From the IMG/VR virus record IMGVR_UViG_3300013093_000131, positions 1-35,236 of that record: 35,236 bases of DNA, one strand, 5' to 3'. Made by a program: the position numbers and the translations under genes. The notes beneath the pieces are model-generated. The model ran no database searches and had not been told where the DNA came from. It saw only the letters and a program-made list of their open reading frames with translations. Of this stretch, positions 27,967 through 35,236 are shown piece after piece (the first letter of the stretch is position 1; each line of letters opens with the position of its first letter). The stretch is from a virus.

Positions 27967-28194
27967 ATGGCTGACATTGATCTTGTTAAATATGGTGTGC
28001 TTTGGCAAAAAGTAGAGGATTATGAGAAAAAGTTTGATTCTATGGAAAAGAAAATAGACAAACTTGAAAACTCTATTGAAAAGCTAGTTTCAATGGCTGA
28101 TAAATCCAAGGGAGGTTTTTGGGTTGGCATGATGATAGTATCAAGCATTTCTAGCTTGGTTGGATTTTTTTCACACTACTTTACTTTTAAATAA
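27967..28194 (+). CDS. small coiled-coil membrane protein
   Basis: 75 residues: a coiled coil (VEDYEKKFDSMEKKIDKLENS) followed by one membrane segment (GGFWVGMMIVSSISSLVGFFSHYF). This build is seen in phage lysis regions, sometimes as a holin-like or accessory protein. It overlaps the next gene by one base (TAATG). The role is not proven. Confidence 0.65.
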   Translation: MADIDLVKYGVLWQKVEDYEKKFDSMEKKIDKLENSIEKLVSMADKSKGGFWVGMMIVSSISSLVGFFSHYFTFK

Positions 28195-28685
28195 TGCCAT
28201 TCATGTTAGCCATCTCTGCAGTCTCTGCTATTAAGCAAGGGGTTGCAATGTATAAAGATGCTAAAAATGTAGGCAAAGAAGTAATGGGCATTTATACAGA
28301 ACTAAGTGATTCACTTGGTTCTTTTTTTGACCATCAAGAAAAAGCTATTGAAGAAGTTAAACATAAAGAGAAAAATCCTCCTAAAGGCAAAAGCATAAAA
28401 GCCCAAGCACTTGAAAATGTTATTAAAAGAAAACAACTTCAACAAGCAGAAGAAGATTTAAAAAGAACTTTAATTTATGATTCTCCTCCAGAACTAGGTG
28501 CTTTGTGGACTGATTTTCAAGCAGAAAGAGCAAAACTTGAAAAAGACAAAGCCAAATTTGATTCAGATCAAAAAAAAAGGATCAAATTGAAAGAAAGGAA
28601 AGAGAAGAAAAAAGAGAAAGATGGAATATTAGAATTGCAATTTGTATTGCAATCTTGGTGGTCATCTTCACAATTGCAAGTTTAA
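28194..28685 (+). CDS. lysis-region/virion protein, zero-frame product; likely extended by -1 frameshift to 28834
   Basis: The zero-frame product is 163 residues: an N-terminal hydrophobic stretch (FMLAISAVSAIKQGVAMYKDAKN), a helical middle (ALENVIKRKQLQQAEEDLKR, LIYDSPPELGALW), then a lysine-rich coiled coil with a poor tail (QSWWSSSQLQV). At A9 (28570-28578) a -1 shift gives KDQIERKEREEKRER and a membrane helix (IRIAICIAILVVIFTIASLM), ending at TAG 28832-28834, for about 213 residues. The extended form looks more natural and resembles short-tailed phage proteins ending in a membrane anchor. Programmed shift, polymerase slippage or assembly error are all possible. Confidence 0.65.
   Translation: MPFMLAISAVSAIKQGVAMYKDAKNVGKEVMGIYTELSDSLGSFFDHQEKAIEEVKHKEKNPPKGKSIKAQALENVIKRKQLQQAEEDLKRTLIYDSPPELGALWTDFQAERAKLEKDKAKFDSDQKKRIKLKERKEKKKEKDGILELQFVLQSWWSSSQLQV
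28570..28578 (+). other. candidate slippery site (A9)
   Basis: Nine A's, read in zero frame as CAA AAA AAA AGG, contain the heptamer A-AAA-AAA at 28571-28577. After a -1 slip the next codons are AAG GAT CAA. There is no ATG, GTG or TTG start in the -1 frame before the membrane helix, so the extension has no independent start. Confidence 0.55.
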
Positions 28686-28778
28686 TGTATTACATTAATT
28701 TGGATTATCAGACAAGTAAAATAGAAGAACCTTGGCACATTGAGTTTAAAAAGAAATTCAAAGATAACAGCATTGATT

Positions 28779-28979
28779 ATGAATGTTACAAAATATTTAG
28801 GGAAACTGGTTATTCTCCTAGCTATTGTAAGTAGTGGGTGTGAGGATAGGTTTCGTTATTTTTGTCAAAACCCTGAGAACTGGAACAATGAAAAGTGCAA
28901 ACCCCCAATCTGTATCGCAACCCAAACGTGCCCAGAATACTTTTCTAAGCCTACTAATGTCAAAACCCAAAACAACTGA
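28779..28979 (+). CDS. small secreted/lipoprotein-like phage protein
   Basis: I prefer ATG 28779 to the TTG at 28740. The 66-residue product has a signal segment (TKYLGKLVILLAIVSSGC), with a cysteine at a relaxed lipobox (SSGC rather than L-x-G-C), then CQNPENWNNEKCKPP, ICIATQTCPEYF, a cysteine-rich pattern I recognise from short-tailed phage lysis regions. It overlaps the frameshift extension of the upstream gene (to 28834) and the next gene. Function unknown. Confidence 0.65.
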   Translation: MNVTKYLGKLVILLAIVSSGCEDRFRYFCQNPENWNNEKCKPPICIATQTCPEYFSKPTNVKTQNN

Positions 28980-31786: not shown

Positions 31787-31895
31787 TTCTTTTTCTTTTG
31801 TACTCATCTTCTTTTTTGGGAAATTTAGCCCTTTCCAATTGTTTAATAGGAACATCCCAAGGTTTTACTGGTTGCCAAATTGTTTTAAACTCCAC
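31746..31895 (-). CDS. possible 49-residue protein directly after the overlapping methyltransferase ORF
   Basis: GTG 31895 follows immediately after the TAA (31898-31896) of the alternative-frame ORF and in the same frame, with GGAGA about 7 nt upstream. The product starts VEFKTIWQPVKPWDVPIKQL and continues with ERAKFPKKEDEYKRKRND and KLRKWIFNL, which looks like a real protein rather than noise. It overlaps the end of the methyltransferase and the start of the next gene. Function unknown. Confidence 0.45.
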   Translation of the reverse strand: MEFKTIWQPVKPWDVPIKQLERAKFPKKEDEYKRKRNDQNKLRKWIFNL

Positions 31896-32805
31896 TTAAG
31901 ATTCTCCATGCGGTTGCTGCACATAAGGGGACTTGTCCGTTTCCAATGGCTTTAAGTCTGTCCACTCTAGCGGCCACCCCATTAACCACTCTACCCACGT
32001 TGGGTTCAATTGACCACTGCTCCGATCTACTGATTGACTCAACATAATTTGCTTTCCTTTCGCAATTCGTCTTTGTATTGATGGATTGCTCATGTTTCCC
32101 CTGTCTCTGTTGTCCGATGCTTGTGGAGTCGGAAACCATAGAACTACCGTCCCCAATCCTGGTGAATCCCTCAAAAACTCCGATGGACTCCCTTTCTCGT
32201 TTGAATTGTGACAAGTTGGTGTTGGCCACATATTTATTCTTTTTTGTAACGCTTTTCTGCTGTTGCTCCCACCGTCTAATCCTGTCGTATTGGGCGTGTG
32301 GAATTTGTCCTCTCCATTTGGCACAAATCCAGATTCTGTCCCTCTTATGGTTTGCTCCAACGTCTGCTGCTCCCAACACTCCCCATTTCGCATCAAACCC
32401 CATTGAGGCCAAGTTTCCAAGAACTCGTCCAAGTCCCCTAGAAGTGAGCATTGGTGAGTTTTCCACAAAGACGTATCTGGGTCGTACTTCACAAATGATG
32501 CGTGCCATTTCTCCCCACATTCCTGATCGTTCTCCGTCAATTCCTGCTCCTTTTCCTGCTGCACTAATGTCTTGGCATGGAAATCCTCCAGATACAACGT
32601 CAACAATTCCTCGCCACGGATTTCCGTCAAAGGTTTGTACGTCATCCCAAATCGGGAAAGGCGGGAGAAGTCCGTCATTTTGTCTGGCGCACAGTACGCT
32701 TGCTGGGTAGGATTCCCATTCAACGGCACAGACTGTTCTCCATCCGAGAAGTTTTCCACCAAGTATGCCTCCACCAGCGCCTGCGAATAAAGCCAACTCA
32801 TTCAT
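31885..32805 (-). CDS. C5 cytosine DNA methyltransferase
   Basis: 306 residues with motif I (ALFAGAGGGILGG), motif IV (SGGFPCQDISAAGKGAG, nucleophile C77), motif VI as ENSP (115-118; ENV in most relatives), motif VIII (HKRDRIWI, 153-160), a recognition region about 165-265, and motif X (AIGNGQVP, 286-293). It would methylate cytosine in phage DNA, probably against host restriction. ATG 32805 overlaps the previous stop (ATGA) behind GAGGGGTGAT. Base composition is about 48% GC and CpG-rich, unlike the neighbourhood. A second long ORF covers the same bases in another frame. Confidence 0.92.
   Translation of the reverse strand: MNELALFAGAGGGILGGKLLGWRTVCAVEWESYPASVLCARQNDGLLPPFPIWDDVQTFDGNPWRGIVDVVSGGFPCQDISAAGKGAGIDGERSGMWGEMARIICEVRPRYVFVENSPMLTSRGLGRVLGNLASMGFDAKWGVLGAADVGANHKRDRIWICAKWRGQIPHAQYDRIRRWEQQQKSVTKKNKYVANTNLSQFKRERESIGVFEGFTRIGDGSSMVSDSTSIGQQRQGKHEQSINTKTNCERKANYVESISRSEQWSIEPNVGRVVNGVAARVDRLKAIGNGQVPLCAATAWRILSGV
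31896..32801 (-). CDS. alternative-frame ORF overlapping the methyltransferase; probable second coded protein
   Basis: 301 codons from ATG 32801, 4 nt after the methyltransferase ATG and within reach of the same ribosome binding site, ending at TAA 31898-31896. It begins SWLYSQALVEAYLVENFSDG and includes DFSRLSRFGMTYKPLTE and RGEELLTLYL, DPDTSLWKTHQCSLLG, TWPQWGLMRNGECW (130-143), three PTP-type units (FHTPNTTGLDGG, MWPTPTCHNS, WFPTPQASD) and PTWVEWLMGWP near 267-277. I recall these as conserved blocks of proteins beside or fused to phage C5 methyltransferases. Either a true overprinted gene or a shadow preserved by homology; the motif match favours coding. No function known. Confidence 0.6.
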   Translation of the reverse strand: MSWLYSQALVEAYLVENFSDGEQSVPLNGNPTQQAYCAPDKMTDFSRLSRFGMTYKPLTEIRGEELLTLYLEDFHAKTLVQQEKEQELTENDQECGEKWHASFVKYDPDTSLWKTHQCSLLGDLDEFLETWPQWGLMRNGECWEQQTLEQTIRGTESGFVPNGEDKFHTPNTTGLDGGSNSRKALQKRINMWPTPTCHNSNEKGSPSEFLRDSPGLGTVVLWFPTPQASDNRDRGNMSNPSIQRRIAKGKQIMLSQSVDRSSGQLNPTWVEWLMGWPLEWTDLKPLETDKSPYVQQPHGES

Positions 32806-34688: not shown

Positions 34689-35236
34689 AAACAATTCATT
34701 CAGCATTTGTAAAGGCTCAAAAGGAATTTGGCCCTGCACTAAAAACTTCTACCAATCCACACTTTAAATCACGTTATGCAGATCTGTCAGCCTGTGTGGA
34801 AGCTGTAATTGATGCCTTAAACAATAATGGAATTGCTTTAATGCAAAAGCTACATCCAAGTGAAAATGGCGTGGCTATTGAAACTATATTTGTGCATGAA
34901 AGTGGTGAATCTATGGCTAATGGAATTTTGAGTGTTCCAGCAAGCAAACAAGACTCGCAAGGCTATGGCAGTGCTTTGACCTATGCAAGGCGGTACAGCC
35001 TGATGAGTGCTTGTGGCATAGCTCCAGAGGATGACGATGGCAATTTAGCTTCCAGAAAGCCAGAACCCAAATCCAATGTAAATGAGTCAGAAATGGCTGA
35101 TTGGCTTGAGGCAATAGCTCAGAGTCAAGATTTGGGTGAGTTGCAGAGAAACTTTGTTCAAGCTATTTCAGCCACTGATGGTGACAAGCAATGGCAATTA
35201 AAAGTAATTGCTGTTAAAGACAAAATGAAAAAAAAA
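34685..35236 (+). CDS. erf: ERF-family single-strand annealing protein (3' end off the window)
   Basis: ATG 34685 starts KTIHSAFVKAQKEFGPALKT, then NPHFKSRYADLSACVEAVID, the usual ERF N-terminus, and the frame stays open to the last base. From codon 39 on it repeats the ERF sequence found at base 1, with three amino-acid changes (P to S, L to P, K to R). It overlaps the membrane protein gene by 4 nt. Joined to the left end it makes one full gene. Confidence 0.9.
   Translation, partial: MKTIHSAFVKAQKEFGPALKTSTNPHFKSRYADLSACVEAVIDALNNNGIALMQKLHPSENGVAIETIFVHESGESMANGILSVPASKQDSQGYGSALTYARRYSLMSACGIAPEDDDGNLASRKPEPKSNVNESEMADWLEAIAQSQDLGELQRNFVQAISATDGDKQWQLKVIAVKDKMKKK
34799..35236 (+). repeat. 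terminal overlap, right copy (matches 1-438)
   Basis: Partner of the left-end repeat, ending in the same A9 run. If the map is circular, the genome is about 34,798 bases. Confidence 0.85.

Follow-up and report, generated by a model that had tools for sequence, protein, structure and literature searches.

Does a phage gene whose open frame breaks shortly after a run of nine adenines encode only the short protein that this frame predicts, or does a −1 change of frame at the run lead to a longer, membrane-anchored product, and if so, which machinery slips? The question is raised by a gene in the window, the whole virus record of 35,236 bases analyzed here.

Reading frames around the run

The run (A9) lies inside the gene's open reading frame, where the 0-frame codons CAA AAA AAA AGG cross it. 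The original prediction described a −1 continuation from this point, and its coordinates, frames and stop at 28834 were all reproduced (Table 1). From 28571 the −1 frame reads KKKDQIERKEREEKRERWNIRIAICIAILVVIFTIASLMYYINLDYQ...SPSYCK and is closed by a stop at 28832–28834; the charged stretch entered at the run, KKKDQIERKEREEKRER, is followed by a membrane helix and then a tail. The charged helix is thereby prolonged and a membrane helix added, as had been proposed: over 19 residues, the Kyte-Doolittle maximum of the joined product is 2.78, at residue 148, versus 1.36 for the 0-frame product.

Table 1. Features of the split gene and its immediate neighbors in the window.
Feature	Position	Strand	Remarks
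75-aa charged-helix protein with C-terminal hydrophobic segment	27967–28194	+	phrog_1193 'hemolysin', weak match
0-frame ORF, short product	28194–28685	+	163 aa: 126 conserved residues, then poorly conserved tail
−1-frame stop TGA	28559–28561	+	closes the −1 frame directly 5' of A9
A9 slip site (putative)	28570–28578	+	invariant A8 core at 28571–28578
−1-frame extension: charged helix, membrane helix, C-terminal tail	28571–28834	+	213 aa together with the 0-frame part
Predicted membrane helix, −1 frame, residues 148–168	28634–28696	+	from hydropathy
0-frame stop	28683–28685	+	place differs between relatives
Small lipoprotein-like ORF, lipobox-like VSSGC, several Cys	28779–28979	+	overlaps end of −1 extension by 56 nt

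Homologs were collected from four scans of viral contigs and one of genomes, which returned many loci, partly on the same contigs. Once identical sequences were removed, 83 with a split frame and a useful length remained, and 36 of these fall below 95% identity; the collections are metagenomic, and contigs drawn from similar samples cannot be counted as independent. The genome scan contributed one relative; its contig had been placed in a Bacteroidetes MAG, too weak a link to assign a host.

Comparison of these sequences identifies the −1 frame as the one that continues the protein. Variability by codon position is 0.27/0.18/0.53 in the 0 frame before the run and 0.44/0.36/0.53 in the −1 frame after it, with the third position highest, and the third-position signal passes to the −1 frame right after the run. 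The joined product is 193–215 aa long in complete relatives, mostly 213 aa. The 0-frame tail, already suspected to be of poor quality, proved weakly conserved, with ORF lengths that range from 129 to 176 aa. A −1 stop closely precedes the run in each of the 81 relatives scanned, all but one of these stops lying no more than 12 nt away; when the relatives are pooled, the last of the upstream −1 stops falls at index 374 and the first 0-frame stop past the run at index 387, and in L028 and L120 the stops leave only the run for the change of frame. Between them, the two sets of stops thus restrict the shift to the run. The following gene begins 1–12 nt past the −1 stop in most relatives; in other cases, such as the window, a small lipoprotein-like ORF overlaps that stop.

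Sequencing and assembly commonly lose one base from a homopolymer, and such an indel, or a decaying pseudogene, might be suspected here. This origin carries very little probability, given that the identical break recurs in dozens of diverged contigs, that codon-position variability and homology to unbroken relatives place the trans-frame extension under purifying selection, and that the length of the −1 product and, in most relatives, the proximity of the downstream gene to its stop are kept. We therefore rejected both the assembly indel and the pseudogene, on the conserved break and on selection in the −1 frame. Just as improbable is an independent gene in the −1 frame, translated from a start of its own. 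The −1 frame before the helix does contain an ATG in L122 and a TTG in some relatives; most relatives, however, have no ATG, GTG or TTG there, and neither does the window between the TGA at 28559–28561 and the helix, as originally predicted. Moreover, unbroken relatives encode a single protein. An internal start was rejected for the window, unless an unusual start codon is used.

By these comparisons it is the −1 product that represents the complete protein. The conserved break, together with a selected extension homologous to the C-terminus of the unbroken relatives, supports the central claim of the original prediction, a programmed −1 frameshift that adds a membrane anchor to a charged helical protein, and we regard such programming, by either layer of expression, as highly likely. 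Very probably, this uncultivated virus needs a slip during copying or translation of the gene to produce both a short soluble and a longer membrane-anchored protein. As a separate observation, the end of the extension in L081 and L091 resembles that of the clade containing L015 while the remainder resembles another clade, which suggests recombination within the −1 extension.

Conservation of the run and the unbroken relatives

The homolog alignment proposed at the outset as a check of the break shows a run of at least nine adenines in all 83 distinct split-frame sequences: A9 in 82 and A10 in one (L082), where the tenth adenine arose by substitution and the frame is still broken. No split-frame relative with fewer than nine adenines was found among the homologs scanned. 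No invariant block in the gene is as long as the A8 core, the next being 5 nt, in an alignment with 118 invariant columns out of 630. Lysine codons in the run are AAA in 36 of 36 sequences; other conserved lysine codons mix AAA and AAG. In the clade L015–L027, position 376 is T and position 385 is A, so that the run starts one base later and still counts nine. We found 31 distinct A9/A10 contexts at the split site, and one A9 and two T9 contexts elsewhere in approximately 0.88 Mb of (redundant) related phage DNA; this recurrence is far beyond chance.

Uninterrupted homologs had been named as an observation that would speak against the frameshift. They do exist as a minority, comprising six sequences of one clade and L148, yet they speak in its favor, since their single frame specifies the same full-length product, and the branch of the unbroken clade lies among lineages that are split. 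Sequences of this clade (L029–L035) lack the run and have one open frame that aligns end to end with the joined product, through the helix and the tail. In a tree of the N-terminal part the clade adjoins the split lineages L120 and L028, with moderate support (91/73) for the fork with L120. Given this position beside split lineages, the ancestor may already have had the split frame, with the open frame arising later through its loss; the tree does not fix this direction firmly.

L148 is the only relative found that has both A10 in the genome (2374–2383) and the full-length protein in one open frame; its product ratio may be inverted, or its run may be variable. The latter would fit phase variation, in which run length changes during DNA replication and genomes alternate between open A10 and broken A9 states. 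We consider phase variation improbable for the family: a switching locus should show a mixture of lengths, not exactly A9 in nearly every distinct split sequence, and an open clade without any slippery run also exists.

Slippage by the polymerase or by the ribosome

The motif A-AAA-AAA was originally put forward as slippery for ribosomes and polymerase alike. The heptamer is indeed in phase in all split relatives (sites 377–383); between the two layers, the balance only leans toward the polymerase. We lean toward programmed transcriptional slippage at A9, with the addition of one A. The genome frame would remain broken, and most transcripts would yield a short product of approximately 163 aa ending soon past the run. 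RNA polymerase, probably that of the host, would slip on A9 and so lengthen the run by one A in part of the transcripts, and ordinary translation of these messages would give the 213-aa protein with the additional charged helix, the membrane helix and a tail in which two Cys are conserved. As both forms would share the N-terminal helical domain, the run would fix the ratio of soluble to membrane-anchored protein; we infer that this ratio is set during RNA synthesis rather than on the ribosome. A polymerase gene of the phage itself was not recognized; a Pfam search for a phage-type RNA polymerase (PF00940) gave no match in the window, and its search controls were likewise unmatched.

Alternatively, tandem tRNA-Lys slippage on A_AAA_AAA within A9, i.e. 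ribosomal −1 frameshifting, would make the same two proteins. This is a possible reading to which we give less credence than to the polymerase, although several observations speak for it. The heptamer is a known ribosomal slip motif (PMC3711429), and here it matches X_XXY_YYZ in the 0 frame in every case; sliding of ribosomes on AAA runs is also known (PMC4363877). Every split relative requires the same direction of shift (−1), which the GeneTack authors read as a sign of ribosomal frameshifting (PMC3711429), their heuristic being that orthologs using transcriptional slippage may need different directions; no such difference is seen here, and the heuristic is not a defining feature. E. coli polymerase, moreover, favors T runs over A runs (PMC6260861).

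The features expected around a stimulated ribosomal site are, however, missing. Downstream RNA structure was not detected, with folding z-scores averaging approximately 0 and an alifold energy of approximately 0; an upstream Shine-Dalgarno-like element occurs in a small minority of relatives and is not conserved; and synonymous constraint is not seen beside the run, where third-position variability is normal except at a few single sites. In E. coli, shift-prone heptamers without stimulators reach only 2–10 times a background of 0.055% (PMC4066793). Seven adenines would suffice for the ribosome, yet nine are kept, the moved-run clade included. The bacterial polymerase slips efficiently at nine A or T (PMC5009743), and coding runs are selected against from nine upward in many genomes (PMC1088944); the length kept here reaches the approximately nine or more A or T that characterize transcriptional slippage. 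We favor the polymerase over the ribosome because the run stands without flanking structure, Shine-Dalgarno-like element or synonymous constraint, and because the moved run kept nine.

The closest parallel is tssM1 of Citrobacter rodentium (PMC4256274), where an A-run with a stop close behind is likewise found without stimulators, and slippage restores a longer envelope protein, giving two length forms. That case concerns a bacterial secretion gene with A11 in few species, whereas here a phage gene carries A9 in dozens of sequences and the extension itself supplies the membrane helix. Thermus dnaX and slippage-type IS transposases also obtain two protein lengths from nine A or T (PMC1088944, PMC5009743); these belong to another gene class, and slippage shortens the dnaX product but would lengthen the product here. 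For phages, the open-access literature on transcriptional slippage yielded only single-gene suggestions (PMC2853527, PMC6095929). It is an even call whether a phage gene family depends on polymerase slippage at a kept A9 to set the ratio of soluble to anchored forms of a late envelope protein, with some lineages losing the slip site by becoming unbroken. If true, double-stranded DNA phages would have a programmed transcriptional slippage that evolution has conserved, with a slip site seemingly consisting of nine adenines alone. The natural contrasts in the family (A9, A10, moved run, unbroken) could tell polymerase from ribosome slippage, and gene callers will cut such genes short, losing the membrane anchor.

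Protein, neighborhood and genome

Known conserved frameshifts of tailed phages lie mostly in the tail chaperone gene. Like the G/GT pair of that gene, the family described here would make a short and a C-terminally extended protein through a conserved frameshift; it differs in lying between tail-fiber and lysis genes rather than beside tail-tube and tape-measure genes. The split gene is not positioned just before a tape-measure gene, and PHROG and Pfam searches found no sequence related to the chaperone. We rejected a G/GT identity on gene order and the missing family match; the phage is also P22-like by its portal, connector and ejection proteins. The family would add a phage gene family unrelated to the tail chaperone.

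Searches of Pfam, PHROGs and PDB sequences assigned the split-gene protein to no family. Weak matches to phrog_1544 are probably compositional, since in L033 and L120 this family has a strong match to the gene that follows the split gene. AlphaFold2 modeled the unbroken L033 protein as all-helical, at low confidence (pLDDT 60, pTM 0.25). The two conserved Cys lie in the short C-terminal tail and are absent in L028 and L120. The protein would probably be oriented with its charged N-terminal part inside and the tail outside.

The gene order is tail-collar fiber, 75-aa protein, split gene, lipoprotein-like ORF, spanin (Rz-like) and GH19 endolysin, and from the place of the split gene between tail-fiber and lysis genes we infer an envelope role late in infection. 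The stop of the 75-aa protein overlaps the start of the split gene, an adjacency kept in L033 and L120, and the two proteins perhaps act together. By tblastn, stretches similar to the lipoprotein-like ORF occur in MW202462, MW202675 and OQ999401.

The window also encodes a terminase, a portal, a head-closure protein Hc3, a DNA ejection protein and an Erf-like protein, a set that we take to resemble that of P22 and that suggests a P22-like podovirus. Over 438 nt its two ends (1–438 and 34799–35236) nearly repeat each other, with 25 mismatches between them. This points to a circular or circularly permuted genome of approximately 34.8 kb, apparently assembled from two variants. A second A9, at 430–438, lies a few codons before the stop of the Erf-like ORF (43–453) and also matches the point where the contig ends, 35236. 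On the minus strand, ORFs at 31885–32805 (306 aa), a DNA methyltransferase, and at 31896–32801 (301 aa) overlap almost fully in different frames.
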